64,000 nt of DNA, taken from the NCBI GenBank assembly GCA_009797885.1, contig WNKP01000001.1, positions 930,001-994,000 on the forward strand. Direction: 5' to 3'. The stretch's first letter is position 1, and each line of letters starts with the position of its first letter. This document shows, in pieces, positions 3,267-13,887 of this stretch. The translations under genes and the position numbers were made by a program. This stretch comes from Flavobacteriaceae bacterium GF1 (GTDB lineage Bacteria > Bacteroidota > Bacteroidia > Flavobacteriales > Flavobacteriaceae). The notes beneath the pieces are model-generated. The model did not search any database and was not told the DNA's origin. It saw nothing but the letters and a program-made list of their open reading frames with translations.

Positions 3267-5270
3267 CTATTTATAACTTCTTGTTTTAACTTCAATGTTT
3301 TCGTAGACCAAATCTTCTTTATGCAGCTCGGACTTACTTGGGTCCCCTTTGTATTCCCAGGAAGCGACATATTTAAAGTTTTTGTCGTCTCGCAATGCTT
3401 CCCCTTCAGGGGTTTGGTATTCTTCCCTAAAGTGGCCACCACAAGATTCGTTGCGATGCAGCGCATCCATGGCGAACAGTTCACCCAACTCCAGGAAATC
3501 TGCCACACGTCCCGCTTTTTCCAGTTCCTGGTTTTTGGCTTCCGCCTTTCCGGTAACCTTTACATTTTCCCAAAAGTCCTTCCGCAATTCGGAGATTTCC
3601 TTGATAGCCTCTTTCAAATCCTTCGCATTACGTGCCATACCACATTTGTTCCACATGATTTTACCCAGTTTCTTGTGATAATAATCTACGGAATGGATGC
3701 CATTGGCAGACATTAGTTTGTGTATTCGGTCACGGACGTTTTGTTCGGCTTCGTCAAATTCCGGACTATCGGGGGATATGGGTCCGGTCCTAATATCATC
3801 ACTCAGATAATCCCCTATGGTGTAGGGCAATACAAAGTAACCATCTGCCAAACCTTGCATTAGGGCCGAAGCTCCCAATCGGTTGGCCCCATGATCACTA
3901 AAGTTGGCCTCTCCGGCAGCATAACAGCCGGGGATGGTTGTCATTAAATTGTAATCCACCCAAAGTCCGCCCATGGTATAGTGTACCGCGGGATAGATCA
4001 TCATTGGGGTTTTGTAGGGATTTTGGTCCACAATCTTTTCATACATCTGGAAGAGGTTGCCATATTTGGCCTCTACCACTTCCTCACCTAATTTTCTAAC
4101 CGTGGCATCATCAGGATTCTTCATTCCGGAAGTCAATGCCTTTTCGCGACCGTACCGCATAATGGCGGCATCAAAGTCCAGATAAACGGCCTCTCCGGTT
4201 TTATTCACCCCATATCCGGCGTCACAGCGTTCCTTGGCTGCCCTGGAAGCCACGTCCCTGGGGACCAGGTTTCCGAAGGCGGGATATCGGCGTTCCAAAT
4301 AATAATCCCGATCCTCTTCTTTGATTTCAGTAGGTTTCAATTGGCCTGCACGGATAGCTTCCGCATCTTCCTTTTTGGCAGGGACCCAAATACGCCCATC
4401 ATTACGTAAAGATTCCGACATCAGGGTCAATTTCGATTGATGGTCACCGGAAACGGGAATACAGGTCGGGTGGATTTGCGTAAAACATGGGTTTGCAAAA
4501 TGGGCTCCTTTTTTATGGGCTTTCCAGGCGGCCATTACATTGGCTCCCATGGCATAGGTGGAAAGGAAGAATAAATTTCCATAACCTCCGGTGGCCAGTA
4601 CCACCGCATGTCCAGCATGTCTTTCGATTTCCCCGGTCACGAGGTTCCGGGCAATGATGCCCCTGGCCTTACCATCAACAAGGACCACATCCAACATCTC
4701 ATGACGGGTATAGGATTTTATCTTACCACGGTGTATTTGACGGTTCATGGCGGCGTAGGCCCCCAACAGCAATTGTTGTCCGGTCTGTCCCTTGGCATAA
4801 AACGTTCTGGATACCAGTACCCCTCCAAAAGAACGGTTGTCCAAAAGACCACCGTATTCCCGGGCAAAAGGCACTCCTTGTGCCACGCATTGATCGATGA
4901 TATTGGTGGAAACCTCAGCGAGTCGGTACACATTGGCTTCCCTTGAGCGGTAGTCACCGCCTTTAACGGTATCATAGAACAAACGGTACACACTATCTCC
5001 ATCACCTTGATAATTCTTGGCTGCGTTCACGCCACCTTGAGCGGCAATGGAATGAGCGCGTCTTGGGGAATCTTGGTAACAAAATGTTTTTACATTGTAC
5101 CCGAGCTCTGCCAAGGTAGCGGCGGCCGAACCTCCAGCAAGTCCGGTCCCCACAACAATAATATCTATATTACGCTTGTTCGCAGGATTGACAAGGTCGA
5201 TTTCGTTTTTATGTTTTGTCCATTTATCGGCCAAAGGGCCTGATGGAACTTTGGATTCCAATACTGCCAT
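3267..5270 (-). CDS. sdhA: Succinate dehydrogenase/fumarate reductase flavoprotein subunit
   Basis: The 667-residue catalytic flavoprotein that oxidises succinate to fumarate. The Rossmann FAD motif is [15 protein letters not shown] (41-55). His73 in [11 protein letters not shown] matches the histidine that carries covalent FAD in this family. Further family blocks are the [14 protein letters not shown] substrate loop, PRDVASRA with the catalytic Arg, and [12 protein letters not shown] near the C-terminal third. The length and the long C-terminal helical domain match the FrdA/SdhA group of Bacteroidota rather than the shorter proteobacterial SdhA. It starts 4 nt after the sdhC stop, so translation is likely coupled. 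Confidence 0.97.
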
Positions 5271-9438: not shown

Positions 9439-9828
9439 CTAGCTTTCCATCTTTTTTAGCTGAATACCAAGGGCTTTGGTGGATAACTGCACTTCAATAA
9501 GGGACAAAACCAGGGACATCATCAATAAAATCAAACTAATTCCAAAAATGATGTTGGCGAAGACATTCATTTCCACATAAATTAAAAACATGGAAATTGC
9601 AGCCAATAAAAAGCTTCCTATAGCGGTGGCCTGCATGTTCTTAATGATATTGAGACGTTTTCGAAGCGATTCTATTTGACGCTTTAAAGGACTGTCCTGC
9701 GTTTCCTCAAATTGTTTATGTAACTGCCGGATCAATGCCGCGATGGCCAAATAACGCGCGTTATAGGCAAGCATGGTCAAGGAGACCGCGGGAAATAATA
9801 AGGCCGGAATAGTAAGGGTAAGTTGCAT
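9439..9828 (-). CDS. DUF2721 membrane protein
   Basis: A 129-residue integral membrane protein of the DUF2721 family. It has an N-terminal hydrophobic segment (about 4-35, IPALLFPAVSLTMLAYNARYLAIA), a charged coiled middle (LIRQLHKQFEETQDSPLKRQIESLRKR, about 32-60) and two further helices (about 70-112). Its ATG overlaps the stop of the large BNR-repeat gene by one base (TAATG), so the two are translationally coupled. No catalytic motif is known for the family, and the sequence gives no hint of a ligand. Confidence 0.8.
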   Translation of the reverse strand: MQLTLTIPALLFPAVSLTMLAYNARYLAIAALIRQLHKQFEETQDSPLKRQIESLRKRLNIIKNMQATAIGSFLLAAISMFLIYVEMNVFANIIFGISLILLMMSLVLSLIEVQLSTKALGIQLKKMES

Positions 9829-12671
9829 TATTCAATTTTAAATTCCACTTTTTCGGTGGCGCCGTTGGCAGAAAGTTCAATGATGTATTCACCTTTGGGC
9901 AAATAGGTCTTTCCATTTTTTGCCGCTATCAACTTGGTCTTATTCTTTTTCAAAAAAGCCTTTTTACCTTCTTTGCTAAAAGCAACATCATAGGATAATA
10001 GGTTCAGGCCCTTATCCGCAGTCAACTCGGTTGAGCCCACTTCAATCCCATCCGTGGTTTTGATGGAAGCGGAAGTATTTCCGGCCTTGGACGTATAAAA
10101 GGCAATATCCAGACCTGGGGTGTTGGGTTCGATCCAAGTACTCCAACTATTGCCCCATCCTTTGGAATGTTTTATGTCCCCAACTTCAAAGACCGCCAAG
10201 GGTTTTGATAGGGCTTCCGCGGTCATTTGCTGCAAGGAACTGATGTCTGCCTTGTAAATACTGCGTCCGTGCGTACCCACCAACAAATGTTTGGCTTCCG
10301 GTTGTATAACCAGATTATGAACGGCAACATTGGGCATTCCATTTTGGAACAGCTCCCAAGATTCACCCCTATTGAAGGAAACATAAAGCCCGTTGTCGGT
10401 GCCGACAAACAAGAGGTCCTGATTGCTTGGATCTTCAACCAGGGCATTTACGGGGGAAATTGGAATTCCCTTTGAAATGGCCTTCCAGGTTTTTCCATAG
10501 TCCTCACTAAGGTACACGTAGGTCGTGAAATCATCCCAGCGATACCCGTTTAATGTGGCGTAAACCCGTTCCTTTTTGTGGGTACTGGCCACCACCTCAC
10601 TGACCCATAGGTCTTTGGGAAAGGCATCGGAAATGTTCTCCCAACTTCCTCCGCCATTTTTGGAAATATGTAGCAATCCATCGTCACTCCCAACATACAA
10701 CAATCCAAACTGAAACGGGGATTCCGAAATGGTGGTTAGGGTACCATAGGCCACATTACCTTTTTTGCCCCCTTGCGTTAAATCCTGGGAAATGGTTTCC
10801 CAGTCATCACCTTGATTCATGGATCGGTGCAATTTATTTCCCCCTAAATAGAGAATGTCCTGATTGTGACTGGACAAGAGGATTGGGGTTTGCCAGTTGA
10901 AGCGATAAGGGGCTTCCCCCAATTCATGTTTGGGCTGTATCCGGGTATTCTTTTTGGTAGCCAGATCCAAACGGAAGTAATTCCCAAATTGAAAACCCGT
11001 GTAGACGGTATTGGCATTTCTGTTATCAATCTGGACCTGCATTCCATCGCCCCCCAATATTCGTTGCCAGGGGTTCTTTCCAGTTCCATGCCATGCGTTA
11101 TTGTCCGTGCTGTTATGGGCTCCCATCCAAACCCCATTGTCCTGCAACCCGCCATATACATTATAGGGTTCTTCATTATCTACATTGATGGCATAAAACT
11201 GACCTACATTGGGGGAGTTGTTTTTCATCCAAACCGCACCGTCATTATAGGTAATGTTCACCCCACCATCATTCCCATTGATGAGGTGCCCCGGTTTTTG
11301 GGGATTGATCCAAAGGGAGTGGTGGTCCACATGGACATTTTCCTTGCCAATGGAAGTAAAGGTGTTTCCCCCATCCTCGGAAAGCAGTAAAGGAACCCCA
11401 GCCAGATAGATTTTGTCCTTGTCCGAAGGGTCCACCCTAATCTGCGCGAAGTAGTAACCATAGCTATAAAACAAATCATCTATATAATCCTCGTTCATTT
11501 TTTTCCATGTTTTTCCCGCATCATCACTTCTATAGACCTCGGCACCAATTACGGGCGTATCGAACAATTGGGAATTGGCATTTTCCAAATACGTGGCCAA
11601 ATCAATGGGCTTAACAGCACCATCACGTACCATGTTCTTTACATTCTCGGCACGATATTTCTCCTGAAAATTGTTCGTCTTTAAAAAAGCATTCAGTTTT
11701 TTGTTTTCAAGGGCCAGGAAGGTTTCAACGGTCATGATTTTAAAATCTTCCTTGGTCAGATCATCCTTATCGGTTTCCTTTTCCTTTTTTGGAAGCCTAC
11801 GGTCCTGATTATCCAGTACGGCATAAACCGTGGTATCATCAAAAACGGCCAAACCTATTCTACCGACACCTTCCCCAGTAGGGAAACCGCTGTTGATGGT
11901 GCTGATCAAGGTCCAGCTTTCGCCACCATCAGTGCTTTTATAAATGCCAGAACCCTTGCCATTGCCCAAAAAGTTCCATGCCTTTCTGTCCTTTTGCCAA
12001 GCTGCAGCATATTGGATGTTGAAGTTATTGGGGGCATGGGCAACATCAATAATGCCTGTTTCTTCGTTTATGAACAGTGTTTTTTTCCAGGTTTGTCCAC
12101 CATCAGTGGTTTTATAGATGCCACGTTCCCCATTTGTGGAATAGAGCCTTCCGGAAGCCCCAACGACCACTTCATTTGGATTGTTGGGATTGACCAGTAT
12201 TCTGCCAATATGTTGGGAATCGTGCAGGCCTGTATTTTCCCAATTTTTCCCGTTATCGGTGGACTTTAAAATTCCAATTCCTGCATAACTTGAGCGGGAA
12301 GCATTGTTTTCCCCTGTTCCTACCCATATCGTATTGCTTTTCCAATCCACGGCAATGTCTCCAATGTTTTGGGTATCACTGTTATCCAGTAATGGGGTAA
12401 AAGAGATGCCATTATCCTTGGTGAGCCAAAGACCTCCGGAGGCATAGGCCACGTAAAATTCTGTGGGATCGATGGGATTAACATCCAAATCCACCACACG
12501 GCCACTCATTACGGCAGGACCAATATTTTGTAAAGGGAGGTTTTTGACCAAGGAGTTCTTGGCCATCTGCGACTTCTGTTGCAACGCCTCAATTATGGAT
12601 TCTTTTGATGTTGGAGTGGATTGCGCAAAACAGATGCCGACGGAGAGGAGAAAAGCAAAGAAAAGTTTCAT
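9828..12671 (-). CDS. Secreted BNR/VPS10-type beta-propeller protein
   Basis: A 947-residue exported protein of the sortilin/VPS10-like glycosyl-hydrolase-repeat group. The start at 12671 gives a proper signal peptide (MKLFFAFLLSVGICFAQ); the frame extends 16 codons upstream without signal character. At least ten Asp-box repeats are visible, for example STDNGKNW, TTDGGQTW, STDGGESW, SDDAGKTW, SEDGGNTF, NGGGSW, SEDYGKTW and FNRGESW, which fold as beta-propeller blades. A helical insert interrupts the propeller at roughly residues 290-360. The last 100 residues form a beta-sandwich-like module (KGEYIIELSANGATEKVEFKIE). The protein probably acts in the periplasm or at the surface; related proteins occur throughout Bacteroidota with no settled function. 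No T9SS tail is seen. Confidence 0.85.
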   Translation of the reverse strand: MKLFFAFLLSVGICFAQSTPTSKESIIEALQQKSQMAKNSLVKNLPLQNIGPAVMSGRVVDLDVNPIDPTEFYVAYASGGLWLTKDNGISFTPLLDNSDTQNIGDIAVDWKSNTIWVGTGENNASRSSYAGIGILKSTDNGKNWENTGLHDSQHIGRILVNPNNPNEVVVGASGRLYSTNGERGIYKTTDGGQTWKKTLFINEETGIIDVAHAPNNFNIQYAAAWQKDRKAWNFLGNGKGSGIYKSTDGGESWTLISTINSGFPTGEGVGRIGLAVFDDTTVYAVLDNQDRRLPKKEKETDKDDLTKEDFKIMTVETFLALENKKLNAFLKTNNFQEKYRAENVKNMVRDGAVKPIDLATYLENANSQLFDTPVIGAEVYRSDDAGKTWKKMNEDYIDDLFYSYGYYFAQIRVDPSDKDKIYLAGVPLLLSEDGGNTFTSIGKENVHVDHHSLWINPQKPGHLINGNDGGVNITYNDGAVWMKNNSPNVGQFYAINVDNEEPYNVYGGLQDNGVWMGAHNSTDNNAWHGTGKNPWQRILGGDGMQVQIDNRNANTVYTGFQFGNYFRLDLATKKNTRIQPKHELGEAPYRFNWQTPILLSSHNQDILYLGGNKLHRSMNQGDDWETISQDLTQGGKKGNVAYGTLTTISESPFQFGLLYVGSDDGLLHISKNGGGSWENISDAFPKDLWVSEVVASTHKKERVYATLNGYRWDDFTTYVYLSEDYGKTWKAISKGIPISPVNALVEDPSNQDLLFVGTDNGLYVSFNRGESWELFQNGMPNVAVHNLVIQPEAKHLLVGTHGRSIYKADISSLQQMTAEALSKPLAVFEVGDIKHSKGWGNSWSTWIEPNTPGLDIAFYTSKAGNTSASIKTTDGIEVGSTELTADKGLNLLSYDVAFSKEGKKAFLKKNKTKLIAAKNGKTYLPKGEYIIELSANGATEKVEFKIE

Positions 12672-12731: not shown

Positions 12732-12745
12732 TGTGAATTATCACA
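12732..12745. promoter_or_regulatory. Palindrome TGTGA-N4-TCACA upstream of the BNR-propeller gene
   Basis: TGTGAATTATCACA, centred about 67 nt upstream of the 12671 start codon. It resembles a Crp half-site pair but with a 4-nt rather than 6-nt centre. The same arrangement occurs at 20597-20610, which suggests a shared Crp/Fnr-family regulator. Confidence 0.45.
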
Positions 12746-12780
12746 GAAACTGAGAAAAACGAAATAAATTTGTTAAAATC

Positions 12781-12811
12781 TTGCAAAAATAATTACTAAA
12801 CAGTTTATTTG
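12781..12811 (+). promoter_or_regulatory. Putative promoter for the 12.8 kb RNA
   Basis: TTG (12781-12783), 20 nt, then TTTATTTG (12804-12811), one mismatch from TAnnTTTG. Transcription would begin near 12817. Confidence 0.4.
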
Positions 12812-12816
12812 TTACG

Positions 12817-12931
12817 CTTTTAGAGCCCAACTTTAAAAGTCGTTCTCATTCATAGGACGTTAGCGATGCAATAACCAACAAACTATTGCGAAAAAGTGAG
12901 ACTTAAAAGGAGCCTTTGGGCTCCTTTTTTT
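12817..12931 (+). ncRNA. Candidate structured RNA or attenuator leader with alternative stems
   Basis: An intergenic region of about 115 nt with several helices. GCAATA (12868-12873) and TATTGC (12884-12889) form a hairpin with a 10-nt loop. CTCA/TGAG (12845-12848 with 12897-12900) and AAGT/ACTT (12837-12840 with 12901-12904) form an outer helix. A terminator follows (GGAGCC/GGCTCC, 12909-12914 and 12919-12924, then seven T). The 5' segment GAGCCCAA (12823-12830) is perfectly complementary to TTGGGCTC (12916-12923), which would break the terminator hairpin. It could be a free small RNA (flavobacterial families such as flavo-1 exist; I cannot verify a match) or a conditional leader for the DUF547 gene at 13060. 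Sequence evidence only. Confidence 0.5.
12905..12931 (+). terminator. Rho-independent terminator
   Basis: AAAAGGAGCC / GGCTCCTTTT stem around a 4-nt loop, ending in a plus-strand run of seven T (12925-12931). No protein gene on the plus strand ends upstream, so it terminates the RNA candidate beginning near 12817. Confidence 0.75.
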
Positions 12932-13059: not shown

Positions 13060-13887
13060 GTGCACATGAAATTGACATCACTGGTTTATAGCCTTCTCAT
13101 CTTTGTTTCATACACGAACAACACGTCCAGGAACGCGCATGATGATTCCGGTAGGGTAGAAAGTACCCTAATGGAAAACATACCATCTTCCCACAAAAAC
13201 ACTACTGTGGAAACAAGGAAGGAAGGTTTGCAAAGCAAAGCCCCATCCCACAAAGCTTGGGATGAATTGCTTCAAAAATATGTGGATAATTCGGGCAATG
13301 TGGATTATAAAAGCTTTAGGAACGGCGCTACAAAACTTAATGCCTATTTGGAAGCACTTGCCCAAAATAGCCCGACCACGGCTTGGTCCAAAAACGAAAA
13401 GTTGGCCTATTACATCAATTTATATAATGCGGCTACAGTGAAGTTGATTCTGGACAATTACCCCACCAACAGTATCAAGGATATTAAAAAGCCCTGGGGG
13501 AAGGATATTGTTAAGGTGGGGGACGATTTGGTTTCTTTGGGTTATATAGAGCACAAAGTACTTCGTAAAATGGACGAGCCCAGAATTCACTTTGCCATTA
13601 ATTGTGCTTCATACTCCTGTCCCAAATTGATCAATGAAGCGTTTACGGCTTCGGCAATGGAACGTCAATTGGAGGCCGCCACCAGGGGATTTATAAATGA
13701 CCCGACCCGCAATCAATTTAATGCCAATGAGGCCAAACTGTCCGAAATATTTAAATGGTATAAGGGCGATTTTACCGATAATGGAACACTTTTGGAATAC
13801 ATCAACGGATATTTGAGCACACCTCTTGCGGTTGCTACCAAAATCAACTACTTACCATACAATTGGAGTTTAAACGAGAAGAACTAA
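13060..13887 (+). CDS. DUF547 domain protein, exported
   Basis: A 275-residue protein of the DUF547 family. A short hydrophobic N-terminus (about 3-18, LTSLVYSLLIFVSY) looks like a signal peptide; an alternative start is the Met at codon 3. A low-complexity linker leads to the domain at about 62-270, with the characteristic blocks KLAYYINLYNAATVKLIL, WGKDIVKVGDDLVSLGYIEHKVLR, HFAINCASYSCPKL and FKWYKGDF. The family is widespread, of unsettled function, and the Cys pair in the CASYSC motif is conserved. The gene follows the 12.8 kb RNA candidate by about 130 nt and could be under its control. Function is unknown. Confidence 0.82.
   Translation: MHMKLTSLVYSLLIFVSYTNNTSRNAHDDSGRVESTLMENIPSSHKNTTVETRKEGLQSKAPSHKAWDELLQKYVDNSGNVDYKSFRNGATKLNAYLEALAQNSPTTAWSKNEKLAYYINLYNAATVKLILDNYPTNSIKDIKKPWGKDIVKVGDDLVSLGYIEHKVLRKMDEPRIHFAINCASYSCPKLINEAFTASAMERQLEAATRGFINDPTRNQFNANEAKLSEIFKWYKGDFTDNGTLLEYINGYLSTPLAVATKINYLPYNWSLNEKN

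Follow-up and report, generated by a model that had tools for sequence, protein, structure and literature searches.

What is encoded in the non-coding gap between a minus-strand gene for a sortilin/Vps10-BNR-like protein and a plus-strand DUF547 gene in Flavobacteriaceae bacterium GF1? The window that we analyzed is the whole 64,000-nt stretch of contig WNKP01000001.1 from this member of the marine genus Croceivirga (genome G000 in our comparisons), and all coordinates are positions in the window. The gap contains an element at 12815–12931 on the plus strand, in which three hairpins precede AAAGTGAGACT, a segment of 11 nt, and a strong terminator comes last (Table 1). An initial annotation read this region as an attenuator or riboswitch controlling the DUF547 gene or as a stand-alone RNA whose ends pair. 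Our comparisons of sequences and computed folds favor a candidate stand-alone intergenic small RNA (sRNA) gene, to which we assign a probability of roughly 0.65, and which is probably new and restricted to some species of the genus.

Table 1. Predicted features of the sRNA candidate and its neighbors, in window coordinates
Feature	Position	Strand	Remark
Candidate small RNA gene	12815..12931	+	Approximate ends; full-length conservation in 4 genomes, 3′ part in 2 more
Hairpin 1, arms 12816-12825 / 12831-12840, loop CCCAA	12816..12840	+	Minimum free energy (MFE) fold
Hairpin 2, arms 12841-12846 / 12854-12859	12841..12859	+	Competes with the motif-covering helix
UCUCAU, complement of GUGAGA (12896-12901)	12844..12849	+	Motif-covering helix, exclusive with hairpin 2
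Hairpin 3, GCAATA / TATTGC (12868-12873 / 12884-12889), 10-nt loop	12868..12889	+	Stem identical in 4 genomes
11-nt motif AAAGTGAGACT, directly 5′ of the terminator	12893..12903	+	Identical in 6/6 members
Intrinsic terminator: 10-bp stem (12905-12914 / 12919-12928), 4-nt loop, T run	12905..12931	+	Predicted
Promoter candidate TTG (12781-12783)-N20-TTTATTTG (12804-12811)	12781..12811	+	Weakly conserved
Second promoter −7 candidate TAAATTTG	12765..12772	+	Sequence only
DUF547 gene, ~130 nt past the terminator	13060..13887	+	Inconstant neighbor
Sortilin/Vps10-BNR-like gene, divergent	9828..12671	-	ATG at 12671; start in the open reading frame list is TTG, 12719

Strong homologs of the element occur in six of the 11 Croceivirga genomes, namely G000, G004, G006, G009, G001 (taken as C. 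lutea), and G010 (taken as C. thetidis), where they share one chromosomal neighborhood and where the 11-nt motif AAAGUGAGACU recurs with hairpins and a strong terminator. The core shared by all six consists of hairpin 3, the motif, and the terminator. Within the 5.28-Mb GF1 genome, the exact 11-mer occurs a single time. At E up to 1, model R1 matched the genus 33 times, with 9 of the 11 genomes represented; 6 of these matches were kept and 27 dropped (best E among the latter 0.0011). Alignments of three dropped matches (L021, L018, and L022) had the terminator as the main match and lacked the motif; [AG]TGAGAC was absent near the center of six weak or dropped R1 loci, and the remaining matches were judged by score alone. 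A DNA search agreed on the same six genomes, adding terminator-only matches. The element is missing from the other five genomes of the genus (G002, G003, G005, G007, and G008), in which the gaps between sortilin and peptidase genes are short and nowhere contain GTGAGAC. Copies of the 11-mer in G003, G005, and G008 were considered as relocated elements, but no terminator follows them by eye, and they were rejected; G002 and G007 contain no copy.

How far does the element extend beyond these genomes? Across 299 genomes of the family, the exact pattern matched only GF1 itself, and model R1 matched GF1 and, weakly, G114 (33.5 bits), the latter dropped for lack of the motif. This family search with R1 used strict filters, with 12 candidates scored per genome, and listed only G000 and G002 of the genus, so weak homologs can be missed. 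A pattern scan of a collection of named genomes, which may leave out GF1 and its near relatives, returned five stretches, four from Croceivirga and one from a proteobacterial metagenome-assembled genome (L045) that we judged to be a chance match. A peptidase tree made for reconstructing gain and loss held 12 rows of 22 genomes, leaving out nine that gave no readable sequence (G004 and G006 among them) and G013, which was too short; as five of its nine inner branches were open, it was set aside.

Is the element a switch built on pairing between its ends? Most of what the initial annotation had read directly from the letters is there. GAGCCCAA (12823–12830), which lies in hairpin 1, is the exact reverse complement of TTGGGCTC (12916–12923); the GGAGCC/GGCTCC terminator stem, followed by a T run, is found in all six members; GCAATA and TATTGC form the middle hairpin with its 10-nt loop; and the DUF547 open reading frame lies where it was placed relative to the terminator. 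The exact 8-base complementarity is nonetheless a minor feature of the element. When 12781–12931 was dinucleotide-shuffled 1000 times, 140 shuffles contained an exact inverted repeat of 8 nt or more with arms separated by 60 nt or more; the count was 182 of 2000 with the terminator kept, and 740 of 1000 at the same length with G-U pairs allowed; the long-range pairing is no more than expected by chance. When forced, it lies 9.3 kcal/mol above the MFE, with a pair probability of ~2e-7. We compared the pairing in four alignable sequences, the 5′ arm being unalignable in G001 and G010. It is complete in G000 and also in G004, where one C-G pair has become A-U and one pair is G-U, and five of eight pairs are left in each of G006 and G009. 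The covariation on which the proposed pairing was to be judged thus amounts to a double-sided change in one of four sequences, with broken pairs in two others. Its geometry is also unusual. A typical antiterminator pairs with the 5′ arm of the terminator; GAGCCCAA resembles that 5′ arm, so its only possible partner is the 3′ arm, the last part to be synthesized, when the local hairpin has already been able to form.

The gene context bears on the same question. The gene downstream of the element encodes a DUF547 protein in G000, G004, and G006, whereas it is a 93-amino acid glycine-rich open reading frame in G009 and G010 (without a Pfam match in the case of G009), and in G001 an M24 peptidase gene follows directly. 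On the opposite strand upstream, G009 has a DUF2721 gene and the other five genomes have the sortilin gene. Since DUF547 follows the element in only half of the members and the antiterminator pairing is not conserved, we rejected a riboswitch or attenuator dedicated to this gene. A broader version, in which the element is a cis-acting leader of whichever gene lies downstream and termination is its output, could draw on the same-strand gene found ~50–150 nt past the terminator in all six genomes and on the existence of alternative folds of similar energy. However, such a leader would have to serve three different genes in six genomes, with a long-range pairing that is both unconserved and confined to the terminator 3′ arm and with no Rfam match, and we regard it as very unlikely. 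Because the downstream gene differs and five genomes lack the element, a stand-alone sRNA is favored over a DUF547 riboswitch. Of the second proposal in the initial annotation, the stand-alone character is supported, whereas the pairing of the ends, at the probability given above, is unsupported.

Where within the locus is conservation concentrated? Between G000 and G009, successive 20-nt bins from −80 to +20 of the motif start have 14, 17, 18, 15, and 18 of 20 positions identical; the next bin has 14/29, and from 40 nt on identity is 6–11/20. For G001 and G010, identity is 20/20 and 19/21 across the motif; it falls to 7–9/20 in the three bins at −100 to −40 and is again 12–15/20 further up, on the sortilin side. 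The 11-nt motif, identical in all six members, is likely to be a functional region. An alternative is that the locus is a leftover or duplicated 3′ UTR with its terminator, for example that of the glycine-rich gene, and serves termination only, with no function as an RNA. A word of hairpin 3, CAATAACCAAC, is also present in the 3′ UTR of the G009 glycine-rich gene, similar words are found in G028 (AATAACCAAC) and G011 (ACATAACCAAC), and the 3′ end of the glycine-rich gene in G010 is a weak R1 match (29.3 bits). Yet hairpins and motif are conserved above the level of the downstream flank, which is more than a bare terminator would need, and a function limited to termination appears unlikely to us. 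As to origin, these similarities suggest that the RNA gene may possibly have arisen by local duplication near the glycine-rich gene.

Two observations concern the glycine-rich gene and its surroundings. The shared word CAATAACCAAC lies at 12869–12879 in the window and at 4139–4149 of L086, which holds the 3′ UTR in G009. In G021 and G011 (L069 and L072), which belong to related genera, the gap between sortilin and peptidase genes lacks the glycine-rich gene but holds a promoter-like word along with a hairpin resembling a terminator; read by eye, these are perhaps remains of that gene.

Folding predictions set the element apart from its background. The window's RNA is more structured than its dinucleotide shuffles (z of −3.0 to −3.45), and over the six members z ranges from −2.2 to −4.4. 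For hairpin 1, compared in four sequences, 6 of 10 pairs are unvaried, two have one-sided variants, and two are broken in G009; G001 and G010 have no aligned counterpart. Every pair of hairpin 2 is kept in all four sequences, with a single change from U-G to U-A. At the site of hairpin 3, G001 and G010 have a hairpin of different sequence (GCA-a-CGU/ACGUGC) in which the three inner pairs differ, a correspondence that we made by eye and that MAFFT shifts. The loop of the terminator is variable. Since double changes in hairpins 1–3 or the terminator are absent from the four close alignable sequences, covariation support is weak throughout, in a comparison that comprises only six sequences, three of them at least 93% alike. 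As a separate observation, the terminator hairpin of G006 (L090), GGAGCCCAAAGGCTCC, is the exact reverse complement of GGAGCCTTTGGGCTCC in G000 (12909–12924), as if the hairpin had been inverted.

If the ends do not pair, could another helix act as a switch? The predicted helix between UCUCAU and the GUGAGA core of the motif has all six pairs unvaried in four sequences, although unvarying pairs prove nothing. It appears in the centroid structures of G000, G006, and G004 (five pairs there), is missing from that of G009, and has no UCUCAU counterpart in G001 or G010. On these folds, its competition with hairpin 2 would be a better switch candidate than the 8-nt pairing, although only four genomes have the necessary 5′ domain. 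The GUGAGA core has an unpaired probability of 0.08–0.24 in the window's RNA and so is predicted to be mostly paired there, either via UCUCAU or, if transcription starts earlier, with an upstream partner. The corresponding values, which vary with the 5′ end assumed, are ~0.3–0.9 in G004 and G006, 0.5–0.85 in G010, 0.07–0.55 or 0.34–0.86 in G009, and 0.05–0.95 in G001. It is conceivable, though we think it rather unlikely, that the element is a modular, self-covering sRNA in which a core present in six genomes is joined in four of them by a 5′ domain that switches it between covered and open states, and which was possibly born beside the glycine-rich gene.

Where might transcription begin? Two −7-like candidates lie upstream of the element, both weakly conserved. 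The TTG-N20-TTTATTTG promoter candidate named in the initial annotation exists in the window and is altered elsewhere: its −7-like word is TTTATTTA in G004 and ATTATTCA in G009, where TCG also replaces TTG. The second, TAAATTTG, matches the −7 consensus, TAnnTTTG, and becomes AAAAATTG in G009. From 160 to 120 nt 5′ of the motif, G000 and G009 are identical at 14/20 and 15/20 positions, a moderate conservation outside the element that perhaps reflects promoters. The divergent gap also contains a palindrome, TGTGAATTATCACA, at 12732–12745, whose counterpart in G001 (L088) is TTGTGACATTTGACACAA. It resembles a Crp/Fnr-type site and might act on the sortilin gene, on the RNA, or on the two together.

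How might a stand-alone sRNA function? The element has its own predicted terminator, its conservation is independent of the downstream gene, and no small open reading frame is conserved in the six members. Frames starting at the GTG within the motif are 57, 22, 37, 24, 18, and 3 codons long; the first five run through the terminator, and the 3-codon frame is that of G010. Transcription would proceed divergently from the minus-strand neighbor and end at the intrinsic terminator, giving an RNA whose length, with approximate 5′ ends, would be ~115 nt in the species of the window; C. lutea and C. thetidis may have a version of only 70–80 nt. We consider it most likely that such an RNA would act in trans through the 11-nt motif, with AAAGUGAGACU, between hairpin 3 and the terminator, base-pairing with target mRNAs. 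In the members with the longer 5′ domain, UCUCAU may fold onto the motif in place of hairpin 2, covering it in part or most of the molecules. The predicted pairing of the GUGAGA core in the window's RNA argues against a segment that is simply open for pairing.

If the motif pairs with mRNAs, complementary sites might be expected. We searched for the complement of the 11-mer with at most one mismatch, using the reversed pattern as control. Sites and control sites numbered 56 and 49 in G000, 47 and 36 in G009, 39 and 38 in G001, and 40 and 51 in G010, and enrichment was thus inconsistent over the four genomes. Apart from the RNA itself, we inspected every site in G000 (55 of 56), G009 (46 of 47), and G001 (38 of 39), together with 5 of the 40 in G010, and no convincing mRNA target was found among them. 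A few sites, such as those in L148 and L226, fall near the beginning of coding sequences and are unsupported as targets. One G000 site is located in the non-coding stretch directly before the start codon of a PorP/SprF gene (L172). G004 and G006 retain this site, and it is almost intact in G005, G007, and G008, three genomes without the RNA; it is altered in G009 and missing from G002 and G003, while the RNA-bearing G001 and G010 have only 43%-identical paralogs of the gene. The presence of this weak candidate is uncorrelated with that of the RNA, and it too is unsupported as a target. A leader word, GTTTCACTTTAACCCCGAAAAG, precedes the PorP/SprF start codon in six genomes of the genus (L269, L270, L271, L273, L274, and L275), has one change in G009, and is missing from G002 and G003.

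That no mRNA target stands out would also fit a protein-binding or sponge RNA, whose conserved segment and hairpins bind a protein instead of mRNAs. The position of the conserved motif between two hairpins and the frequent predicted pairing of its core are consistent with such a role. We judge it improbable, and a trans-acting sRNA that uses the 11-nt motif remains our preferred reading.

How does the candidate sRNA relate to known RNA families? Neither the window nor any of the five homologous loci searched matches Rfam release 15 at gathering score. Eight matches obtained at E up to 10 scored 15.0–21.6 bits against gathering scores of 45–60 and were set aside as chance or terminator-driven. 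Neither family suggested by the initial annotation accounts for the locus. 6S-Flavo is not among these eight matches, and the 6S-Flavo RNA of GF1 lies elsewhere (C33:398702–398811, scoring 100.8 bits where the cut-off is 85). Flavo-1 has no match at the locus, and searching the GF1 genome for it at E up to 0.1 gives a single match, likewise elsewhere and below threshold (36.8 against 42 bits). 6S-Flavo RNA (RF01685) resembles the candidate as a stand-alone RNA of Flavobacteria of similar length, and the Flavo-1 motif (RF01705) as a structured RNA motif of Flavobacteria, but the element matches the covariance model of neither. The titles and abstract openings of the retrieved papers that name Croceivirga mention no small RNA of the genus, and none of the five stretches from the named-genome scan with the exact pattern is a Flavobacterium record.

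By description, the closest published kind consists of the sRNAs of Flavobacterium psychrophilum, including Rfp18. Rfp18 and other independent transcripts (Rfp) are described as intergenic, structured, stand-alone sRNAs conserved within their genus, and Rfp18 itself is reported to be conserved in Flavobacterium and to have metalloprotease targets (PMC9723704). At this level of description our candidate is similar, being intergenic, of predicted structure, probably stand-alone, and kept within a genus of Flavobacteriaceae. If transcribed, the Croceivirga element would join the known sRNAs of this family as a lineage-specific member that matches no family of Rfam release 15, and one whose presence, absence, and re-modeling can be traced in a single gene neighborhood across a genus.
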